DNA of 64,000 nt from Candidatus Mediterraneibacter merdipullorum (GTDB lineage: Bacteria > Bacillota > Clostridia > Lachnospirales > Lachnospiraceae). A model generated the notes under the pieces. That model was not told the DNA's origin and ran no database searches. It was given only the letters and a program-made list of their open reading frames with translations. The stretch lies in contig DXAL01000015.1 in assembly GCA_019117125.1 (NCBI GenBank), positions 1-64,000 of the forward strand, given 5' to 3'. How positions within the stretch are numbered: position 1 is the first letter of the stretch; each line of letters starts with the position of its first letter. This document shows, piece by piece, positions 1,625 to 38,250 of this stretch. The translations under genes were made by a program, and so were the position numbers.

Positions 1625-1921
1625 CTAGTCCTCCTCCTTTAGATCGGAATTTTCTTTTGTCTCATGAAACCTTTCTAGATATTCATCAAAAATTTCACGA
1701 TTAATCAATACAATTCCATCCATTCTGTAAATTGCTCCTGCAGCATTGGCTAATTCCATTAATTTCTTATGAGACAGACTGTATACAATCTCTGCCTGCT
1801 GATATCGAAGAAATTTTCTTCTAAGCCTTCGGGCCGCCTCCATAACTTCACTGCGTTTCTGCTCATTATAGTACATATCTTCTGTTCTCATGAAACAGTC
1901 TCCTTTCTTTAATACGGCCAC
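1625..1921 (-). CDS. small DUF6462-like / excisionase-like protein (start probably at internal MRTED)
   Basis: FLRYQQAEIVYSLSHKKLMELANAAGAIYRMDGIVLINREIFDEYLERF parallels the neighbouring protein. Confidence 0.6.
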   Translation of the reverse strand: MAVLKKGDCFMRTEDMYYNEQKRSEVMEAARRLRRKFLRYQQAEIVYSLSHKKLMELANAAGAIYRMDGIVLINREIFDEYLERFHETKENSDLKEED

Positions 1922-1951
1922 TACTGCTGTTTATACGTGAGGAATAAAAAA

Positions 1952-1989
1952 GAGCACTCTTTGAAAGTTTTTTCTTTCAAAAAGTGCTC
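1952..1989. terminator. strong inverted repeat, likely terminator
   Basis: gagcactctttgaaag-tttttt-ctttcaaaaagtgctc. Confidence 0.6.
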
Positions 1990-2130
1990 AAATCATCGGT
2001 TTCCCGATATGTTTCGCAGATAACAACTCTTCATCACGCTTCGTGATAATTCGTGATTATTTCGAAAATTGTTGTCAAATTGTTGTCAAAATGAATTTTT
2101 GCTGTCAAATCTGAAGGTTATTTCTTATCC

Positions 2131-4050
2131 TTAGTAGAGCTTCGCTCCTGCCGGAATACTATCATCCAGCATCAGCAGATTCAATACTTCCTGCCCGTCG
2201 TACTCATGTACTGCACTGATCAGCATACCCTCGGAGTCGATACCCATCATCTTCCTCGGCGGCAGATTTGTGATCGCCACACAGGTCTTTCCGACCAGCT
2301 CTTCCGGCTCGTAATACTCGTGAATTCCGCTTAAAATCGTGCGTTTCCGGTCCGTTCCATCGTTCAGTATAAACTTCAGGAGCTTCTTGGACTTTGGAAC
2401 TGCCTCGCATGCCTCTACCTTTACAACCCGGAAATCGGACTTGCTGAAGGTGTCAAAATCAACAGCATCCTCGAACAGCGGCTCGACTTTCACCTTGGAA
2501 AGATCGATCTTCACAGCCGGTTCGGACTCTTCTTTCTTGTCCGTTTTCTTACCTTCGGCTCCGCCGATGCTCTTCATTGTCGGGAACAGCAGCACATCGC
2601 GGATTGCCGCGCTGTCTGTGAGCAGCATGCACATACGGTCGATGCCGAATCCGATGCCTCCTGTGGGCGGCATGCCGATTTCCAGCGCATTCAGGAAATC
2701 TTCGTCTGTATGCTCCGCCTCATCATCGCCTGCTGCCGCATTGGCATCCTGCTGCGCGAAGCGCTCTCTCTGGTCGATGGGGTCGTTGAGCTCAGAATAC
2801 GCGTTCGCCATCTCCCAGCCGTTCATAAAGAACTCGAACCGCTCCACATAGTCCGGATTCTCCGGTTTCTTCTTTGTCAGCGGAGAAATCTCAATCGGAT
2901 GGTCCATCACGAACGTCGGCTGCACCAGATGCTCCTCAACAAATTCCTCGAAGAACAGGTTCAGGATATCTCCCTTCTGATGCCGCTCCTCAAATTCGAT
3001 ATTGTGTGCTTTCGCAAGCTCACGCGCCTGCTCCAGCGTCTCTACTTCGTTCCAGTCCACGCCTGCATATTTCTTTACGGCATCGACCATGGTGATGCGC
3101 TCGAAGGGTCTGCCAAGGTCCATCTCAATACCGTTGTATACAATCTTTGTGGTGCCGAGCACATCCTGTGCCACGTGGCGGTACAGGTTCTCGGTCAGGT
3201 CCATCATCCCGTTGTAGTCCGTGTACGCCTGATAGAGCTCCATCAGGGTGAACTCCGGATTGTGCCGCGTATCAAGTCCCTCATTCCGGAAGACGCGCCC
3301 AATCTCATAGACTCTCTCCAGTCCGCCAACGATGAGCCTCTTCAGGTAAAGTTCCAGGGAGATGCGGAGCTTTAAGTCCTCGTTCAGCGCGTTGAAATGC
3401 GTCTCAAAAGGTCTCGCCGCCGCGCCGCCGGCATTGCTGACCAGCATCGGCGTCTCCACTTCCATGAAGCCCTCTCCGTCCAGGTATTTCCGGATAGAGC
3501 TGATAATCTTTGACCGTTTGACAAATGTATCCTTCACTTCCGGATTCATGATGAGGTCCACGTATCTCTGGCGGTAGCGGATATCAGTATTGGTCAGTCC
3601 GTGGAATTTCTCCGGGAGTATCTGAAGGCTCTTGGAGAGCAGCGTCACACGGGAGGCGTGGATGGACATCTCACCGGTCTTTGTCCGGAAGACTTCGCCC
3701 TCGATGCCGATGATATCGCCCACATCCAGCTTTTTGAACTCTTTGTAGTTCTCCTCGCCTACGCTGTCTCTTGCGACATAAGACTGGATGTTGCCCTTCA
3801 GGTCCTGGACATTGCAGAAAGAAGCCTTTCCCATCACACGTTTGGACATCATACGCCCCGCAACGGACACCTGCTTCCCTTCCAGCTCGTCAAAATTGTC
3901 TTTGACATCCTGGCTGTGGTGTGTCTGCTCATATTTTGTAATCACGAACGGGTCTTTTCCGTTCTGCTGAAGCTCCGCGAGTTTCTCACGGCGCACTTTC
4001 CTCAACTGGTTCAGGTCCTGTTCCTGTCCGTTTTTCTGCTGCTGTGCCAA
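2131..4050 (-). CDS. lysS: class II lysyl-tRNA synthetase with C-terminal tRNA-binding (EMAPII/Trbp111-like) domain
   Basis: N-terminal OB domain, [45 protein letters not shown]; extra C-terminal domain [75 protein letters not shown]. Confidence 0.95.
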
Positions 4051-4089
4051 TGTTTCTTCTCCTTTCTGATATCCCCTTACACGCGAACG

Positions 4090-4115
4090 CAGACCTCTTA
4101 ATACTAAGAGGTCTG
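4090..4115. other. intercistronic stem-loop between greA and lysS
   Basis: cagacctctta-atac-taagaggtctg, perfect 11-bp stem with 4-nt loop and no obvious U-tract. Confidence 0.55.
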
Positions 4116-4130
4116 TAACGTGTCCTTTGT

Positions 4131-4616
4131 TTACTTTGAGCGGTTGATCTCAAGCACCTTGTATTCGATGTCGCCTGCCTGCGTCTCAACCTTCACCGTC
4201 TCCCCGGCTTTTTTGCCGAGCAGCGCCTGCCCTACCGGAGATTCGTTGGAAATCTTGCCTTCCAGGCTGTTTGCCTCCGTGGAGCCCACAATCTTGAACT
4301 CCATCTCTTCCTCATAGGTGATGTCATAGACCTTTACAGTGCATCCCACATTGATCTTGTCAAAGTCAACCTCGTCCTCTACGACGACCTCCGCATTTTT
4401 CAAAATGCCTTCCAGCTCCTCGATGCGCGCCTCGATATCCCGCTGTTCGTCTTTCGCCGCATCGTACTCTGCATTCTCGGAGAGGTCGCCCTGCTCTCTC
4501 GCCTCTTTGATCTTGGCTGCAACTTCTTTTCTCTTTACTACTTTCAGGTTCTCAAGTTCATCCTCAAGTGCCTTGAGACCGGCATAAGTAAGTAATCGTT
4601 TCTTCGCCTCTGCCAT
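4131..4616 (-). CDS. greA: transcription elongation factor GreA
   Basis: [58 protein letters not shown]; internal M17 of the ORF chosen as start. Confidence 0.95.
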
Positions 4617-4739
4617 GGTTACGCTTCCTTTCTGTTCCCTTGGATTTCTTTCTATATTTTTCATCCACGCATGCAGGAATGCCTGTCCTGTATGCTGTCA
4701 TTTAAGTCTATTTCGCAATTTCAATATTATAACCAAACT

Positions 4740-28540: not shown

Positions 28541-29866
28541 TTACTTCGCTGCTTTCGGGAACTGCATCCCAATGCGGGTCCCTTTCCCGGGCGCGCTGTC
28601 CACCGTCACCTTTGCCCCGTGGAGCAGGGCTCCGTGCTTCACGATGGAGAGCCCCAGCCCGGTGCCGCCGCGCTCTTTGGAGTGGCTCTTGTCCACCCGG
28701 TAGAACCGCTCGAATATCCGCTCGTGGTGTTCTTCCGGGATGCCGATGCCTGTATCGGACACCGTGACTTTCGGTCCGTCCAGCGTATTTCCCACCCAGA
28801 CGGATACCCGCCCGTTCTCCTGATTGTACTTCACTGCATTCTCACATACATTGTATATCATCTCATCCAGTATCTGACGGATGCCGTAATAGGTCACCGG
28901 CTCCCCGGTCACCTCCATGCGGATATTGCGCTGGGCAGCCTGGGGAGAAAGGCGGCTGATGATTTCCCGCGTGAGCTCATAGAGGTCCACGTTCTGCTTC
29001 TCCAGCTCCACGGATTCCTCGTCCAGTTTGGACAGCTTGATGATATCCTCCACAAGGGTGATGAGCCGGCGGGCTTCTTTGTAGATGCGCTCGGAGAACG
29101 CCGGGATGTCCGCCGGTCTTACCAGTCCGTTCTTCATGATTTCCGCATACCCGGATATGGATGTGAGGGGCGTCTTGAGCTCATGGGAGACATTGGCGGA
29201 AAACTCCTTGCGCATGTTGGAGACCGCTTCCTTCTCCCGGTTCTGCTTATCCATTGCCTGCAGGAACGGCGTCAGCTCCTCATAGGTCCGGTTCTCCAGC
29301 GGATGTTCCAGGTCCAGCTCATAGATAGGGCGGACGAGGCGGCTTGTCTGCCACTTCGCCAGGAACCATGCCAGGAGCATCATGAGGGCTCCCAGTCCGA
29401 TGATGAAGGGAAGGTTGGCCAGGGCGGTCCCGATCAGGCCGTCCATGGATTTGGACACGCGCAGCACGGTCCCGTCATCCAGGAGGAGTGCATAATAATA
29501 CAGCTCCTGCCCTACCGTATCGGACATCCTCACGTCCTCTCCCTCGCCGGAGGCAAAGGCTTCCCGTACTTCCTTCCGGCTGCCGTGGTCCTCCATGGTC
29601 TCCTCGTCCTGCCGGGTGTCATAGAGGACCTGACCGTCCCGGTCTATCTGAGTAACGCGCGTGGTCCAGTCCACGCCGTTCATCTCCTCCAGGTACTCCG
29701 CCCCCGATATGTTGATGGCTGCCCGGATGTAGCGCGCTTCCTGGCGCACTTCGCCTTCGAGCACCGAGAGACTGCTGCTGTATGTAATGAGTGTCAGTAT
29801 GATATAAGAAAGAAGCAGAGTGACGGCGAGCACCGTCACCATGCTTCTCTGTATTCTCTTTCTCAT
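28541..29866 (-). CDS. phoR: PhoR-type sensor histidine kinase
   Basis: FSANVSHELKTPLTSISGYAEIMKNG, NAVKYNQ, DTGIGIPEEHHERIFERFYRVDKSHSKERGGTGLGLSIVKH. Confidence 0.9.
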   Translation of the reverse strand: MRKRIQRSMVTVLAVTLLLSYIILTLITYSSSLSVLEGEVRQEARYIRAAINISGAEYLEEMNGVDWTTRVTQIDRDGQVLYDTRQDEETMEDHGSRKEVREAFASGEGEDVRMSDTVGQELYYYALLLDDGTVLRVSKSMDGLIGTALANLPFIIGLGALMMLLAWFLAKWQTSRLVRPIYELDLEHPLENRTYEELTPFLQAMDKQNREKEAVSNMRKEFSANVSHELKTPLTSISGYAEIMKNGLVRPADIPAFSERIYKEARRLITLVEDIIKLSKLDEESVELEKQNVDLYELTREIISRLSPQAAQRNIRMEVTGEPVTYYGIRQILDEMIYNVCENAVKYNQENGRVSVWVGNTLDGPKVTVSDTGIGIPEEHHERIFERFYRVDKSHSKERGGTGLGLSIVKHGALLHGAKVTVDSAPGKGTRIGMQFPKAAK

Positions 29867-30537
29867 GCGGCTCCTCCGACGCGGTAACCCACACCGCGCA
29901 CTGTCTGGATAATCTCTCCTTTTTCTCCGAGCTTCTGGCGCAGGGTACGGATGTGGACGTCCACGGTCCTCGTCTCTCCGTCGAAATCATAGCCCCATAT
30001 CTCGGTCAGGAGCTGGTCCCTTGTCAGGACGATGCCCTGATTGCGCATCAGCTTTTCCAGGAGCTCGAACTCCTTGAGGGTGAGGGCGACTTCCTTTCCG
30101 TCCACCGTGACCTCATGCTTCTTCACATCCACATGGACGCCGGACGTCTCCATGTCCATCCGGTCCTCGGTCTTCCCGCTGCGGCGCAGGACCGCCTTGA
30201 TGCGGGAGACGAGCTCCATCATGCCGAAGGGCTTTGTCACGTAGTCGTCCGCCCCGGAATCCAGCCCCACGACTTTGTCATACTCAGAGCCTTTTGCCGT
30301 CACCATGATGACCGGGATTCCCTTTGTCCTGGACGAGGACTTCAGTTTTTTCAGAAGTTCCAGCCCGTCGTCTCCTGGGAGCATGATATCCAGCAGGATG
30401 AGCTCCGGCGTATCAAACGCCAGAGCCTCCATAAAAGCAGAACCGTCTGCGAAGCCTCTGGCTTTGAGCCCGGTCGTCTCCAATGTATATATCACAAGTT
30501 CACGGATGTTGTCGTCATCTTCCACGCAATATATCAT
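29863..30537 (-). CDS. phoP: PhoB/PhoP-type OmpR-family response regulator
   Basis: MIYCVEDDDNIRELVIYTLETTGL, LLDIMLPGDDG, winged-helix C-terminus LTRDQLLTEIWGYDFDGETRTVDVHIRTLRQKLG; start at internal M51. Confidence 0.92.
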   Translation of the reverse strand: MIYCVEDDDNIRELVIYTLETTGLKARGFADGSAFMEALAFDTPELILLDIMLPGDDGLELLKKLKSSSRTKGIPVIMVTAKGSEYDKVVGLDSGADDYVTKPFGMMELVSRIKAVLRRSGKTEDRMDMETSGVHVDVKKHEVTVDGKEVALTLKEFELLEKLMRNQGIVLTRDQLLTEIWGYDFDGETRTVDVHIRTLRQKLGEKGEIIQTVRGVGYRVGGAA

Positions 30538-30626: not shown

Positions 30627-31295
30627 TTAATCCTCGTGGACGAGCGCGCTGTCTTTGTGCACGCCTGTGATGGAGAATTCCACCCACTCGGCGATGTTGG
30701 TCGCATGGTCGCCGATACGCTCGAGATATTTGCTCACCATGATAAGGTCGAACGTCCTGCCGCCGTTTTCCCCCTTCTCTTCTTTGATGAACTGAATCAT
30801 CTCATCGCGCACCTGCTCGAAAAAGCTGTCGATGGCGTCGTCTGCTTCCATCACGTCCCGCGCCAGTTCCAAATCCCTGTTCACATAGGCGGTCACGCTG
30901 TTGCGCACCATCTTGCTGACTTCGGACGCCATCGTCCCGATGACATGGATTTCCTCCGACGCTGCGGCGCCTTTGGAAGAAATGATGATTTCGGCGATAT
31001 CCGCCGTCTGGTCGCCGATGCGCTCCATATCCGTTATCATCTTGAGCGCCGCGGAAATCCTCCTTAAGTCCCGTGCCACCGGCTGCTGCTGGAGCAGAAG
31101 CTTCAGGCACAGTCTCTCAATGTCCTTCTCGCACTGGTCGATTTCCTCGTCTTCCTCGATGACCTTTTTCGCCTGCTCGATGCTGCCGTCCTTGAGCGCC
31201 TGTGTCGCCTTGGCAATCGCTGTCTCGCAGAGTTCTCCCATATGTGTAAGCTGCCCATCGAGGGAATGCAGCTGTGCATCAAATCTGTTACGCAT
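30627..31295 (-). CDS. phoU: phosphate transport regulator PhoU
   Basis: MRNRFDAQLHSLDGQLTHMGELCETAIAKATQAL...VARDLRRISAALKMITDMERIGDQTADIAE...YLERIGDHATNIAEWVEF. Confidence 0.95.
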   Translation of the reverse strand: MRNRFDAQLHSLDGQLTHMGELCETAIAKATQALKDGSIEQAKKVIEEDEEIDQCEKDIERLCLKLLLQQQPVARDLRRISAALKMITDMERIGDQTADIAEIIISSKGAAASEEIHVIGTMASEVSKMVRNSVTAYVNRDLELARDVMEADDAIDSFFEQVRDEMIQFIKEEKGENGGRTFDLIMVSKYLERIGDHATNIAEWVEFSITGVHKDSALVHED

Positions 31296-31298
31296 GAT

Positions 31299-32048
31299 TT
31301 AACCGAACCTCCCTGTGATATAGTCTTCTGTCCGCTTGTCGGACGGGATGGAGAATAACTTCTCTGTGTCATTGTACTCTACGACTTCTCCAAGCAGGAA
31401 GAAAGCGGTATTATCGGATACACGCACTGCCTGCTGCATGTTATGTGTGACCATGACTATAGTATAGTCTTTTTTCAGCTCCATCGCAAGGTCCTCAATC
31501 TTGGAGGTGGAGATGGGGTCGAGAGCGGATGTGGGCTCATCCATCAGCAGCACTTCCGGCTCCACTGCCAGCGCTCTGGCGATGCAGAGTCTCTGCTGCT
31601 GGCCGCCGGACATGCCCAGGGCGCTCGTCTTTAACCGGTCCTTGCACTCATCCCAGATTGCGGCGTTGCGCAGGGATTTCTCCACGATGTCGTCCAGCTT
31701 CGCCTTGGAATGAACGCCGTGGGTCCTCGGTCCGAACGCGATATTGTCGTAGATGCTCATGGGGAACGGGTTCGGCTTCTGGAATACCATTCCCACTCTC
31801 TTTCTCAGCAGGTTCACATCCATGCCCTTGAAGATGTCCTCGCCATCCAGGAGGATTTCTCCTTCGATGCGGCAGCCTTCCACAAGGTCGTTCATCCGGT
31901 TGATGGACTTGAGGAGCGTAGATTTTCCGCATCCGGAAGGTCCGATAAATGCGGTAATCTTATTGGATTCAATCTCAAGATTTACGTCTTTGAGAGCCTT
32001 GAAGTCCCCGTAGTATAAATCCAGATTTTTGATACTTATCTTAGACAT
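31299..32048 (-). CDS. pstB: phosphate ABC transporter ATPase PstB
   Basis: [54 protein letters not shown]. Confidence 0.96.
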
Positions 32049-32068: not shown

Positions 32069-32947
32069 TTACGCTTTCGTAAGTTTTCTCGCGATGACGC
32101 TTGACAGCGCGTTGATGCCCACTACAAGGACGAGCAGGATGACCGCCGTCGCATACGCCTGGTCCATGTAGAGCCCCTCACTGGAGAGGACGTACATGTG
32201 GAGCGCCAGGGTGCGCCCGGAACCCATAACGCTGTCGGGTATCTGCGCCACCGTTCCCGAAGTGTACATCAGCGCCGCCGTCTCTCCCACGATACGCCCG
32301 ATGGCGAGGATGACGCCTGCCAGGACGCCCGGGATGGCGGACGGGAGCACAATGCGGAACACCGTGCGCAGCTTGCCTGCGCCCAGCCCGAAGCTGCCTT
32401 CCCGGTAGGAATCCGGCACTGCCTTTAACGCCTCTTCTGTCGTCCGCATGATGAGCGGCAGAATCATGATGGCGATGGTGAAAGCTCCGGCGAGAAGGGA
32501 AAATCCCCAGCCCAGCGCATTGACGAAGAACAGCATACCGAACAGGCCGTACACGATGGACGGGATTCCGGAGAGCGTCTCTGTCGTCAGCCGGATGACT
32601 TCCACGAATTTATTCCCTCTCTTTGCGTACTCCACAAGGAAGATTGCGGAAAATATCCCGAACGGGACCGCGATGAGCAGGGACAGCAGCGTCATAACGA
32701 TGGTGTTGACGAAAGCCGGCACCACCGATGCGTTCTCGGAGCTGTACTCCAGCGAGAACAGGGACGGTGTGATGTGCGGAAAGCCGTTTATCAGGATGTA
32801 TGCGATAAGGAAAATCAGCACGGCGAAGGTGATGACCGATGCCAGCATCACCAGCAGCATGGTGATGAACGAACCCGGATGCTTCAGATACGTCCGGAAC
32901 TTATCGCCGATGGATGTCTTATTTGCCATTTCTCTGTGATTATTCAT
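32069..32947 (-). CDS. pstA: phosphate ABC transporter permease PstA
   Basis: [65 protein letters not shown]. Confidence 0.95.
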
Positions 32948-33833
32948 GGTCCGCCCCCCTCTTGAGCAGCGCTACGCTGAAATTGATGATGAGGATGAAC
33001 ACGAACAGGACCACGCCCGTCGCGATGAGGGCTTCCCTGTGGAGTCCCGTCGCATAGCCCATCTCGATGACGATGTTTCCGGTCAGGGTGCGGATGCCGT
33101 CCAGCATGCTCCCTGTCAGTCTCGCCTGGTTCCCGACAATCATGATGACCGCCATGGTCTCGCCGATGGCGCGTCCGATGCCCAGCACGATGCCGGCGAT
33201 GACGCCGGACTTGGCAGCCGGGATGATGACCCGGAAGATGCTCCGCTCTTTGGTCGCGCCCAGGGCGAGCGAACCTTCATAATAATGAGACGGAACTGCC
33301 CGCATGGCGCTCTCCGTCGTGCCGATGATAGTCGGCAGGATCATCATGCCGAGGATAAGGGAAGCCGTCAGGATGCTGTTTCCGTTTCCGGGCTTCTGCA
33401 CCAGCCCTGCTTTATATAATGCGGTCCCGAACTCGCGTATCAGCGGAACGACAACGACCAGACCGAAGAAACCGTAGATAACGGACGGAATCCCGGCAAG
33501 GAGCTCTGTCGCAGCCTTCAGCGGTTTGTAAATCTGCTTCGGGCAGTACATCGCCATGAAGACAGACGTCAGGATGCCGATGGGGACTCCGAAGATGATG
33601 GCTCCCGCCGTCACGTAAAGGCTTCCCACAATCATCGGCAGGATGCCGAACTGTTCGCTGTTCGGACGCCAGATGTCGCCTGTGATAAATTTTACAAATC
33701 CAATCTCTCTCATTGCAGGGATGCCGTTTGCGAACAGGAATACGCAGATGAGCGCTACCGCCAGCACGGATGCGCACGCTGCCACGAAAAAGACTCCCTG
33801 CATGAATTTTTCAGTCCATGCTTTCGATTTCAT
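32940..33833 (-). CDS. pstC: phosphate ABC transporter permease PstC
   Basis: LLAGIPSVIYGFFGLVVVVPLIRE, TTESAMRAVPSHYYEGSLALGATKERSIFRVIIPAAKSG; start at internal M20, since the upstream codons form a stem-loop. Confidence 0.95.
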   Translation of the reverse strand: MKSKAWTEKFMQGVFFVAACASVLAVALICVFLFANGIPAMREIGFVKFITGDIWRPNSEQFGILPMIVGSLYVTAGAIIFGVPIGILTSVFMAMYCPKQIYKPLKAATELLAGIPSVIYGFFGLVVVVPLIREFGTALYKAGLVQKPGNGNSILTASLILGMMILPTIIGTTESAMRAVPSHYYEGSLALGATKERSIFRVIIPAAKSGVIAGIVLGIGRAIGETMAVIMIVGNQARLTGSMLDGIRTLTGNIVIEMGYATGLHREALIATGVVLFVFILIINFSVALLKRGADHE

Positions 33834-33845
33834 TTTTTTCTCCCG

Positions 33846-33881
33846 ATGAGCCGGGCAGATCAGTCTCTCCGCCCGGCTCAT
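33846..33881 (-). promoter_or_regulatory. intercistronic stem-loop between pstS and pstC
   Basis: atgagccgggc-agatcagtctctcc-gcccggctcat, perfect 11-bp stem. Confidence 0.7.
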
Positions 33882-33948
33882 GATTTTCAAGTGAACATTT
33901 TCTCATCCGGAAATGTTTCGATTCTGTTTTCTGTCCTGCGCTGCCAGA

Positions 33949-34890
33949 TTAGATGGCATCCCATGTAGCGACTTCGCCGAGGTAGATGCTCTTTACCTGG
34001 TCAGATGTCAGATCCTCTGTCGGGTTGTCCTGGTTCACGATGACTGCGATTCCGTCTGTCGCGATAACCGTGCCCTCAAGCTCTGCGGACTCTTCCTCTT
34101 TCAGCTCTCTGGATGCCATACCGATGTCATAGCTTCCCTCGATTGCGGATGTCATACCTGTTGTAGAATCAGATGTCTGGAGCTCGATGGATGCGTTCGG
34201 GTTTACCTCTGCATAAGCCTCGATGAGTTTCTCCATCAGCGGTGATACAGAAGAGGAACCGCCTACGACACAGCTTCCTTCCGGAGCCTCGCCTGCATAA
34301 GCCTCTACGTCAGATACCGGGATGTATCCCTCGCCTGCGACAACTTCCTGTCCCTCTGTGCTCATGATGAATGCCATGAAGTCTGCTGCCACTGCGTTGT
34401 CAGAATCCGGTTTTACCGCTACGTTGAACGGTCTGGATACTTTGTAGGAACCGTTCTCGATGTTCTCTGCCGTCGCCTCTGCTCCGTCAATCTTTGCTGC
34501 CTTTACAAGAGACTCGTCAAGAGAACCAAGAGAGATGTATCCGATTGCGTATTCGTTCTCAGATACCGTCGTCATCATAACGGATGTGCTGTTTGTCACC
34601 TGAGCGTCCAGGGTCGTCATATCGTTGTCTTCTTCATCTACCACTCCGAACAGCTCTGTGAAAGCTCCTCTCGTTCCTGAACCTTCCTCACGGGATACGA
34701 CGGTGATGGCGTTTGCTGCGTCCCAGCTTCCGGAAGCCTCTGCGCCGCCTTCTTCTGTGCCTTCTGTGCTTTCTTCTGCTGCTGCATCGGCGCCCTCTCC
34801 TGATTCCTCAGAACCGCCGCCGCATCCGACAGCCATAGCCGCTACCATAGATACTGTTGCCAATACTGCGATAAACTTTTTCATTTTCAT
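33949..34890 (-). CDS. pstS: phosphate-binding lipoprotein PstS with circularly permuted domain order
   Basis: Lipobox VGC; TVVSREEGSGTRGAF near the N-terminus and VVGGSSSVSPLMEKL...DLTSDQVKSIYLGEVATWDAI at the C-terminus, the reverse of canonical PstS order; precedes pstCAB. Confidence 0.93.
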   Translation of the reverse strand: MKMKKFIAVLATVSMVAAMAVGCGGGSEESGEGADAAAEESTEGTEEGGAEASGSWDAANAITVVSREEGSGTRGAFTELFGVVDEEDNDMTTLDAQVTNSTSVMMTTVSENEYAIGYISLGSLDESLVKAAKIDGAEATAENIENGSYKVSRPFNVAVKPDSDNAVAADFMAFIMSTEGQEVVAGEGYIPVSDVEAYAGEAPEGSCVVGGSSSVSPLMEKLIEAYAEVNPNASIELQTSDSTTGMTSAIEGSYDIGMASRELKEEESAELEGTVIATDGIAVIVNQDNPTEDLTSDQVKSIYLGEVATWDAI

Positions 34891-35006
34891 CTTTGATAAT
34901 CTCCTTTTTTTCATTCAGATTATTATGTACCGCGCATCTTCTTTCTATTCGATGCGCCGCCGCGGAGCGTTCTCTTCCGTCGACGCTATCCATCATAAAA
35001 GAGAAA

Positions 35007-35103: not shown

Positions 35104-35877
35104 CTATCCCAGCAGGAACTGCCCCATATCTTCTATCGTATAAAAGACTTTGTCCGCCCCCGCGTCCAGGAACCGTTCGGCGACTTCCCGGCATCTTGCC
35201 GCCTGTTCTTCCTCTCCGAGCGCTTCGTACTCTTCCTGTGTCAGTCCCATCTCGGAACTTCCGATGACAATGCCTGCGGACCAGACGCCTGCGTTCTTCC
35301 CTTCTTTGATATCCGATACCGTATCCCCGACTTTCAGGACCCGGCGCACCTTCTTGATATCCAGTGCTTCCATGTTGCGGAATATCATATACGGATACGG
35401 GCGTCCCTTCTGCCCCGCCGCGTCCGGGCTGAACCAGACGTCCGGCTCATATCCCTGCGCCTTCGCCGCCGGCACGACAATCTCCATCATCTTATCGTTA
35501 TACCCTGTGGTGGAGCCAATCTTAATGCCGTGTCTTCTCAGCCGGTTTACCGTCTCCGCCACGCCGGGCTTCACACCACAGTACTCCGGCAGGATGCTTA
35601 AGAGCTTTTCCTCAAAGATAGCATAGAGCGCCCGGGCTTCTTCCTCCCCCGGCTCTGTTCCGTATTTTTCTCTCCAGAGGTCCCGGATGCGCTCCATCTT
35701 CAGCATCGTGCGGATATGGTCGATTTCCAGCATGCCCATGGGCTTTCTCACTTCCTCTATCGTCGGCTCGATGCCGTACTGTCGGAATACTTCCAGAAAT
35801 GCCCTTACCGGAGCCATGCACCCATAGTCCACGGTCGTTCCCGCCCAGTCAAATATCACTGCCTTAATCTTCTTCAT
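35104..35877 (-). CDS. phnX: phosphonoacetaldehyde hydrolase
   Basis: MKKIKAVIFDWAGTTVDYGCMAPVRAFLEVF, YCGVKPGVAETVNRLRRHGIKIGSTTGYNDKMM, KVGDTVSDIKEGKNAGVWSAGIVIGSSEMG. Confidence 0.93.
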   Translation of the reverse strand: MKKIKAVIFDWAGTTVDYGCMAPVRAFLEVFRQYGIEPTIEEVRKPMGMLEIDHIRTMLKMERIRDLWREKYGTEPGEEEARALYAIFEEKLLSILPEYCGVKPGVAETVNRLRRHGIKIGSTTGYNDKMMEIVVPAAKAQGYEPDVWFSPDAAGQKGRPYPYMIFRNMEALDIKKVRRVLKVGDTVSDIKEGKNAGVWSAGIVIGSSEMGLTQEEYEALGEEEQAARCREVAERFLDAGADKVFYTIEDMGQFLLG

Positions 35878-36460
35878 GATTATACTCCTCCAGAAATTCC
35901 CTGATAATCGCACACACTTTCTCTATGTCTTCCCGGTATATCTCTCCGATATTGCCGATGCGGAAGGTGCCGCCTCCGTCACCTTGCCCGGATAGATGGC
36001 ATATCCCCTGTCCTTGATGTAATGATACATCTGCGAAAAAGTAAAGCGGCATTTCTCCGGATAGTAGAACGTCGTGATGATGGGACCCTGGTGCGCGCTG
36101 TCGATATACGGGCGTATTCCCATCTCTCCCAGCTTTTCAATGAGCAGACGGTTGTTGCCGATATACCGCCGGGTCCGCGCCTCGATGCCGCCTTCTTCCC
36201 GCAGCTCCTTCATCGCCTGGGCGAACGCCAGCACCACATGGGTCGGGGATGTGAACCGCCACTTCCCGTCCGCTTCCATGCATTAGGACCACGGTGTACT
36301 CTTTCTCCGATACATGCGCCAGTTCCAGAAGCCCTTTGCGTATCTCCTGGGTAATCTGCTTGTAGTCGTCATCCCAGGTGCAGTGGTCAAAAAGCATCTG
36401 CTGCTTCACCGTATCCGTCGTGGTGAGCGGTCCCGGTGTGAGAAGTTTATATGTTTTCAT
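35864..36460 (-). pseudogene. phnW: 2-aminoethylphosphonate-pyruvate transaminase, disrupted by internal deletion and frameshift
   Basis: N-terminus [60 protein letters not shown], then a jump (~36281) to [26 protein letters not shown]...KVTEA in another frame, and a second shift near 35966 to TFRIGNIGEIYREDIEKVCAIIREFLEEYNHEED. Confidence 0.9.
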
Positions 36461-36550: not shown

Positions 36551-37579
36551 TTACAGTCCTGCCGCTTCCTTTGCCGCCTCGGAGACTGCCTGATGCTGCT
36601 CCAGCAGGTCTACCGTCAGCTTCTCCGGGAACACTTTCGGGTTCGCGGATTTGTTCGCCGCGTCTGTGGACTCTCCGTTGTACAGCGCGTTCGGATAGTA
36701 GGACTGCCGTTCTTCCCGTCCGTTCTCAATGATGCACTGCGCCATCTCCATTGCCAGCGGATTGGCATCCTCTCCCTTGTCAATAACTGCCACGGACTCG
36801 GTCAGGCTGAAATTGCCCTCCGCCGGGTCGATATAGTCGATGGGAAGTCCATCCGCCTTGTCCGCAACCGCCTGCTGCCGGAGTCCGAACCCGATGGCCA
36901 CCTCACCGGCGCGCACTTTCTTCAGCGGTGCGGAGCCGGAATCTTCCAGATGGTCGCCCACATTCTCATAGATGCCTGCCAGCACGTCCTGCGCCCCGTC
37001 CTCGCCGTATTCGGATACAAGCGCCTGTATCAGAAGCCACGCCGTAGAGGACGCTGCGATATCTGTCACCGAGACATATCCCTTGTACGCCGGGTCCGCC
37101 AGGTCCGCGATGGACTCCGGCATGGAAAGCCCGTTTTCTTCCATCATCTCGGTATTGACGATGATGGTCCCTTCCTGGGAGGTAATGGGCGCACAGTAGG
37201 GCTCGAACGCATCGATGGTGTCCACGTCAAAGCTCAGGTCTGTAAACATGCTGTTCTGCTCCTGGGCGCTCTCCACATAGAAGGTGCTCATCGTCACCAT
37301 GTCCGCCTCGATGTCCGTCCCCTCAGCCAGCAGCTTGCCGCCCAGCTCGGACGTTCCGAACGTCTGGAACATGTACTGTCCCTCGTAGCCGTTGCTGTCC
37401 AGCGCGTTCTCCATCGCGGTGATGGCTTCCTCATCTGCATTGGAATAGATGATGACCTGCTCATCCGACGAGCCGGTATCGCACCCGGTAAGTCCCAGTC
37501 CTGTCACAGCCACTGCCGCTGCGAGCGTCAGTGACGCCGCACGTTTTACATTCCCTTTTTTCATGTTCATCTTTTTCAT
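36551..37579 (-). CDS. Fe3+/2-AEP-type ABC transporter substrate-binding lipoprotein
   Basis: Lipobox TGC; VIIYSNADEEAITAMENAL, intact ~340-aa type 2 binding-protein fold; located with phnW/phnX. Confidence 0.85.
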   Translation of the reverse strand: MKKMNMKKGNVKRAASLTLAAAVAVTGLGLTGCDTGSSDEQVIIYSNADEEAITAMENALDSNGYEGQYMFQTFGTSELGGKLLAEGTDIEADMVTMSTFYVESAQEQNSMFTDLSFDVDTIDAFEPYCAPITSQEGTIIVNTEMMEENGLSMPESIADLADPAYKGYVSVTDIAASSTAWLLIQALVSEYGEDGAQDVLAGIYENVGDHLEDSGSAPLKKVRAGEVAIGFGLRQQAVADKADGLPIDYIDPAEGNFSLTESVAVIDKGEDANPLAMEMAQCIIENGREERQSYYPNALYNGESTDAANKSANPKVFPEKLTVDLLEQHQAVSEAAKEAAGL

Positions 37580-38250
37580 GATTTGCCTGTTCCTGAAGCT
37601 GTCCGGCGAACAGCGTAAAGATATTGTTCTTCTTTATCTCGAGCTGGTTCAGGATGAATTTTCCGGTTGGTGGATGATTTCCTCCGGACGGGCAAACTGT
37701 GCAATCTTTCCTTCGTTGATGATCATCACCCGGTCCGAGAGCGTCAGTGCCTCTTCCAGGTCGTGGGTCACGATGATGGTTGTCAGGTGGTACTCTCTCG
37801 CGATGGTCCGGATGCGGTCCTTAATGGACTCCTTTATGACGCCGTCCAGCGCGCTCAACGGCTCGTCGAGCAGCAGTATCTTCGGCTTCATGACCATGGT
37901 CCTTGCAAGGGCGACCCTCTGCTTCTGACCGCCGGAGAGCTGTCCGATGCGCTTGCTCAGGTGCTCTTCCAGACCGAGCAGGCTGATGAGTTCTTCCACT
38001 TCTTCTCTGGAAGAGATTTCCGGCTTGTTCCTCAATCCGTATGTAATATTCTGATATACGTTCAGGTTCGGGAAGAGCGCGTAATCCTGAAATACAATAT
38101 TGAAGCCGCGCTTTTCCATCGGCACGTCCGTAATATCTTCGCCCTGATAGAGAATCTGTCCGCCGTCCGAATCGACGATGCCCAGTATCAGATTTAGAAG
38201 CGTCGTCTTGCCGCAGCTTTTCCGCCGCCGCATGAGCAATTATACCTGCG
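37580..38250 (-). pseudogene. ABC transporter ATPase of the phosphonate locus, N-terminally truncated and frameshifted near the C-terminus
   Basis: Begins at a degenerate Walker A (..RRRKSCGKTTLLNLI), retains LSGGQKQRVALART, ends PENSS*; the +1 frame continues FILNQLEIKKNNIFTLFAGQLQEQ. Confidence 0.8.

Follow-up and report, generated by a model that had tools for sequence, protein, structure and literature searches.

A circularly permuted phosphate-binding protein PstS in a Lachnospiraceae pst operon and its probably recurrent origin

Results

The pst locus and its permuted pstS gene

The window analysed here, a 64 000 nt stretch of Candidatus Mediterraneibacter merdipullorum DNA, carries a pstS gene directly upstream of intact pstCAB-phoU, followed by a PhoP/PhoR pair. 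A first-pass annotation, made from the letters alone, had described this operon and had proposed that its PstS is circularly permuted. The operon was recovered as described, with the pst genes scoring above curated cut-offs and PhoP and PhoR matched by their domains. The features are as follows.

33949..34890 (-), permuted pstS gene (P0001), 313 aa and stop; lipoprotein
34822..34890 (-), PstS signal peptide and lipobox (..AMAVGC), residues 1-23; from sequence
34708..34821 (-), PstS acidic low-complexity tether, residues 24-61; from sequence, low pLDDT
34312..34707 (-), PstS old C-terminal half (ITVVSREEGSGTRG...GYIPVS), residues 62-193; PF12849 positions 123-267 and model
34276..34311 (-), PstS linker from old C- to old N-terminus (DVEAYAGEAPEG), residues 194-205; 12-14 aa in 175 of 183 permuted ORFs
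33952..34275 (-), PstS old N-terminal half (SCVVGGSSSVSP...IYLGEVATWDAI), residues 206-313; PF12849 positions 5-131 and model
32943..33890 (-), pstC; TIGR02138, 296 bits (cut-off 196); first TTG listed, true start probably further in
32069..32947 (-), pstA; TIGR00974, 284 bits (cut-off 193)
31299..32048 (-), pstB; TIGR00972, 419 bits (cut-off 343)
30627..31295 (-), phoU; TIGR02135, 214 bits (cut-off 130)
29863..30534 (-), phoP-type response regulator; PF00072 and PF00486
28541..29866 (-), phoR-type histidine kinase; PF02518, PF00512 and PF16736

The pstS ORF is unbroken and in a single frame, and its ATG at 34890 is preceded by an AAGGAG ribosome site; a longer alternative start at 34914 is unlikely. 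The lipobox cysteine (Cys23) is encoded at 34824-34822 (-), and the motif WDAANA, with W56 at 34725-34723, closes the acidic tether. Both halves of PstS are present once, the C-terminal half before the N-terminal half, with the old termini joined. The old N-terminal half reads VVGGSSSVSP...IYLGEVATWDAI and is followed by the stop codon. An additional GSSSV half upstream in the same frame was looked for and none was present.

Further upstream on the same strand the gene for 2-aminoethylphosphonate transaminase, phnW, is broken (35923-36460 (-)), covering profile positions 1-65 and 232-334 of 369 in two frames, and is either a pseudogene or an assembly error. Its neighbours are an intact phnX (35104-35877), a gene for a phnS2-like binding protein (36551-37579) and a short phnT2-like ATPase ORF (37649-38239).

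Order of the two halves

The inverted order was recovered in Pfam, NCBIfam and PDB comparisons alike. PF12849 (PBP_like_2) matched the minus strand in two pieces, positions 5-131 at nt 33925-34293 and positions 123-267 at nt 34354-34725, and the first half of the profile is therefore encoded downstream of its second half. The E-values of the two pieces (1e-21 and 3e-11) are far beyond chance, and the protein as a whole scored 114.8 bits (cut-off 27). TIGR02136 matched with an E-value of 5e-55, again as two swapped pieces, at 186.9 bits and thus below its cut-off of 206.6; TIGR00975 likewise matched as two swapped stretches. Canonical PstS chains from the PDB (4q8r, 4gd5, 1twy and 4exl) were not collinear with the window protein by phmmer; each aligned as two swapped stretches. 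Both halves matched PstS structures, each being 44-48% identical to Clostridium perfringens PstS (4q8r). The motifs quoted at first pass are present, and the phosphate-loop motifs GSSSV and SREEGSGTR are invariant or nearly so across 64 homologues. Judged by these similarities, both halves share descent with canonical PstS, and the joint tree agrees.

Predicted structure and position of the cut

An AlphaFold2 model of the window PstS, built from 64 permuted homologues, had a mean pLDDT of 90, with ten-residue blocks at 94-98 from residue 61 onward. One PDB chain, 4h1x, was collinear end to end by phmmer (residues 57-313 with chain positions 6-264, E 3e-54), and it was also the top Foldseek match of the model (E 2e-34, TM 0.95 by target length, 1.2 Å, 42% identity, 259 columns). 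Only half of the model, 131-141 columns, aligned with canonical PstS structures, which is how a circular permutant has to appear to an aligner that works sequentially. The model and its match to 4h1x give the window PstS the two-lobed Type II binding-protein fold, structure prediction having been put forward as a check at first pass. OpuAC proteins were considered as collinear relatives and rejected, since Foldseek TM scores of 0.4-0.5 at >6 Å indicate generic Type II folds.

In canonical relatives the loop that corresponds to the cut has the pattern W-x-x-[VIL]-G-G-x-x-x-I, and 55 of 62 have nine residues separating the modules. Published limits for one canonical PstS assign residues 102-117, on strands 4 and 5, to the hinge and residues 112-278 to the second lobe (PMC12421899). 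The model has residues 272-286 (..TDGIAVIVNQ..) as the strand that crosses from lobe I to lobe II, and residues 152-159 as the strand that returns. The first crossover lies ∼25 residues before the new termini and the second ∼90 after them, which places both (residues ∼61 and 313) in a lobe II loop. Strand order and the published limits together suggest that the cut falls in this loop rather than at the inter-lobe hinge, where it had been put at first. The lipid tether would accordingly leave from lobe II in the permutant and from lobe I in canonical PstS; the earlier proposal that the anchor has moved away from lobe I is retained, while its destination by strand order is lobe II and not the hinge. 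Nor are WDAANA and WDAI hinge residues, the crossover strands lying elsewhere in the model.

These two W-D motifs had further been taken as a relic of duplication left at both termini. The counts are suggestive, since of 174 permuted proteins 102 have an aromatic residue at position -6 and 84 have Asp at -5; against this, the spacing to the next strand is 6 in permuted and 10 in canonical proteins, and the motif is missing from the permutant at locus L078. A longer tether was discarded as the reason for permutation, the medians being 25 aa in permuted and 22.5 aa in canonical proteins.

Distribution of the permuted order

The vague impression, recorded at first pass, that a similar order occurs in related Firmicutes proved well founded. 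Within the genus 33 of 36 genomes were permuted (one of them, G014, as a fragment at a contig end), two (G002 and G008) were canonical only and one was without a match; congeneric permuted proteins were 67-91% identical to that of the window. At least 91 of 295 genomes in the order sample were permuted, as counted from the listed full-length matches, as were ∼75 of 390 in the class sample and 14 of 399 in the phylum sample, most others in the latter being canonical. Named permuted records include many Lachnospiraceae and Oscillospiraceae, Anaerotruncus colihominis DSM 17241, Thermoclostridium caenicola DSM 19027 and termite-gut Spirochaetes MAGs.

G005 carries both a permuted pstS (L013) and a divergent canonical one (L039), and G002 (L040) and G008 (L041) carry the divergent canonical type only, a pattern which suggests gene replacement within the genus. 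Permuted pstS genes at L127, L130, L134, L148, L158, L167 and L203 lie on contigs labelled as Spirochaetes, Deferribacterales, Helicobacteraceae, Anaerolineaceae or Desulfovibrio-like, and represent either horizontal transfer or MAG contamination. Separate permuted pstS genes stand as adjacent tandem pairs at L089, L285, L286 and L308.

Tandem forms and the route to permutation

ORFs were split by HMM into N and C modules, yielding 183 of order C-N, 62 of order N-C and two of order N-C-N-C. Two loci have this last order, L109 (genome G638) with one ORF of 544 aa and L110 (G681) with one of 531 aa; each ORF fuses two complete canonical PstS, and that of L109 is flanked by a PhoR-type kinase gene and pstC. 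At L335 (G1096:C82) an ORF at 1696-4665 (-), upstream of pst permease genes, encodes one 990-aa lipoprotein of order C-N-C-N-C-N, consisting of three permuted 286-aa repeats that are 92-96% identical. A tandem intermediate state is therefore tolerated. These fusions are distant from the window gene and are not its ancestors; they demonstrate a possible intermediate, not its occurrence here. The first-pass annotation had invoked tandem duplication followed by trimming, a route on which tandem copies in one frame are expected, and the living fusions, together with repeated origins (below), favour that route indirectly.

Fission of pstS into two genes and their re-fusion in the opposite order would yield the same product, and is a recognised general route to permutants. 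No separate half-genes were found among ∼320 loci, the half-length matches examined being situated at contig ends or assembly gaps, and in-frame tandem fusions exist in both orders; fission and re-fusion is thus an unlikely though not negligible origin.

Number of origins

For phylogeny the modules were set in one common order before tree building, and the trees were unrooted. When same-order proteins were sought and mapped in this way, the order proved to be widespread and very probably has more than one origin. In an 89-row tree, 47 permuted proteins including 4h1x formed one clade (SH-aLRT 92), while the permuted L078 paired with the canonical L091 (99) outside it and L111 was unplaced. The careful tree gave two order changes, and a single change was found in 0% of bootstrap trees; branch support for the main permuted clade was moderate (68/93 and 89/73). 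L078 is 67% identical to L091, with concordant per-module values of 65% and 69%, compared with 44% to its nearest permuted protein. Its gene is located on a single contig between infC-rpmI-rplT and pstC-pstA. Altered docking of the permuted protein on PstCA, expected at first pass, is a hypothetical consequence; between L078 and L091 identity remains at 75% for PstC and 80% for PstA despite the swap.

All permuted PstS could descend from one event if L091 and the nearby canonical rows were reversions, and the C-N-C-N-C-N protein of L335 shows how a trimmed permuted tandem could restore canonical order. However, AU tests rejected a single clade that unites L078 with the main permuted group (p 1.4e-5 and 2e-43), and two canonical rows, L235 and L226, fall outside the pair formed by L078 and L091. 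We consider a single origin improbable. Given the position of L235 and L226, the preferred reading of L078 is that of an independent second permutation, again at the lobe II loop, in a sequence nested among canonical relatives. Linker lengths differ, as expected of separate fusions: most linkers of the main clade have 12-14 aa, that of L078 has 20 aa and that of L283 ∼27 aa. The f187/f238 group, to which L283 belongs, was placed by the tree beside a canonical row, with an AU p of 0.073 for joining it to the main clade; a third origin in this group is possible and tree-favoured, and is not claimed. L251 was too divergent for placement.

Role of the permuted protein

No second pstS was found in the source genome (94% complete) by PF12849 profile search. 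The remaining two weak matches were rejected as pstS, being a ModA-type protein and a LysR regulator. As the sole pstS, adjacent to the pst operon, the gene very probably encodes the only Pst receptor of this genome and the working receptor of that operon, in line with the functional role first suggested for it; this role is deduced from gene content and position.

The protein might instead be a paralogue that binds another ligand or serves in sensing, as some divergent permuted relatives are encoded away from pstCAB, beside a Na/Pi cotransporter gene. That is very improbable for the window protein, which is the only copy in its genome and directly upstream of pstCAB, whose PstS motifs are invariant across 64 relatives, and whose permuted relative SP_2084 serves the pneumococcal Pst1 system. 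Finally, there is next to no likelihood that the order stems from a canonical pstS that was misassembled or has a broken frame: the source genome is a 55-contig draft, but the ORF is intact, with its own ribosome site, lipobox and a stop at the homologous loop, dozens of independent assemblies share the order, congeners and the single-contig genomes G018, G028 and G149 among them, and the crystal structure 4h1x shows it too.

A divergent permuted PstS-like lipoprotein (..REEGSGTRAEFE..) was observed at four loci (L076:1992-2885(-), L077:1872-2741(+), L079:2878-3750(+) and L187:1412-2341(+)). At all four its gene is directly downstream of, and overlaps, that of a Na+/Pi cotransporter-PhoU fusion (PF02690 and PF01895), an arrangement in which the lipoprotein may bind Pi and act together with a secondary transporter.

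Discussion

The swapped order, intact frame, conserved motifs and intact pst operon are evident from the sequence, and a retained PstS fold is predicted by the model. We hold with high confidence that this is the pstS of an ordinary high-affinity Pst importer and that its product is a natural circular permutant, the account of its origin included. The chain would begin within lobe II at the strand ITVVSRE, run to the old C-terminus and through the 12-residue linker to the old N-terminus, and end in the old loop after IYLGEVATWD. It would fold into the two-lobed flytrap, bind Pi and deliver it to PstCA while tethered from lobe II. The order may have arisen by in-frame tandem duplication of pstS in a clostridial ancestor, with subsequent loss of the first N-terminal half and the last C-terminal half. 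A large clade, including the pneumococcal Pst1 receptor, would have inherited it, and the same duplication and trimming probably took place independently at least once more, in L078.

With only slightly less confidence we propose that PstS has been permuted at least twice, perhaps three or more times, at one lobe-II loop, and that permuted, canonical, N-C-N-C and C-N-C-N-C-N forms coexist in living bacteria. Circular permutation is usually reconstructed afterwards as a rare one-off. If the proposal is true, PstS would be a rare case of recurrent circular permutation that can be traced stepwise in functioning operons, and this recurrence at one site, with living intermediates, is the strongest claim made here. 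With the closest canonical relative of one permutant still 67% identical and tandem forms alive, direct tests become possible of how permutation proceeds, how its cut site is chosen and what it costs. The permuted protein appears to be a real and functionally ordinary phosphate receptor that is topologically unusual, widespread and undescribed. It is in use by a large clade of gut bacteria and in the inducible pneumococcal Pst1. There is also a practical consequence, as collinear models such as TIGR02136 score permuted PstS below cut-off.

Comparison with known systems

The nearest known system is 4h1x, released in 2012 as 'phosphate-binding protein pstS 2', which is SP_2084 of Streptococcus pneumoniae TIGR4. 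SP_2084-2088 are assigned to Pst1, adjoining PnpRS (PMC6722419), and the 'pstS2' of papers is SP_1400 (PMC11075461); the PDB/UniProt number (2) is thus reversed relative to the operon number used in papers (Pst1). Pst1 is induced ∼200-fold at 10 µM Pi, and its loss cuts uptake at low Pi (PMC4913102). With SP_2084 in Pst1, there is a permuted PstS that serves an importer functioning in living cells, and by homology the same role may be carried over to the window PstS. The window protein shares with 4h1x the swapped order, the cut loop, collinearity over the whole mature protein, the phylogenetic clade and a pst operon beside a two-component system; the host lineage differs. An open-licence literature search found no paper on permuted PstS or mentioning 4h1x. 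What is new is the evolutionary part, namely the recurrent origins and the tandem forms.

A natural permutant is known among other binding proteins. TpMglB-2 (Tp0684) of Treponema pallidum is a sugar binder of Type I whose chain is permuted, and it has been given the name Type Ic (PMC4990184). Like the window PstS it is a naturally permuted, membrane-tethered binding protein of an ABC importer, also with Gram-positive relatives. It differs in being a Type I/Cluster B sugar binder with another cut and a poorly conserved swapped part, and is not homologous to the PstS event. The window PstS does not show the Type I sugar-binding fold (MglB homologue), its best matches being PstS and other Type II/PBP-like families; by the logic of the Type Ic name, permuted PstS would be permuted Type II proteins.

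Canonical PstS (4q8r/4gd5, 1twy and 1ixh; TIGR02136 and PF12849) has the same motifs and operon partners and probably the same fold. In the window protein, by contrast, the halves are reversed and the score falls under the TIGR02136 cut-off, and the canonical lipid anchor is on lobe I. The most fitting classification of the window protein is that of a permuted PstS variant, canonical in motifs and operon, probably also in fold, and non-canonical in chain order.
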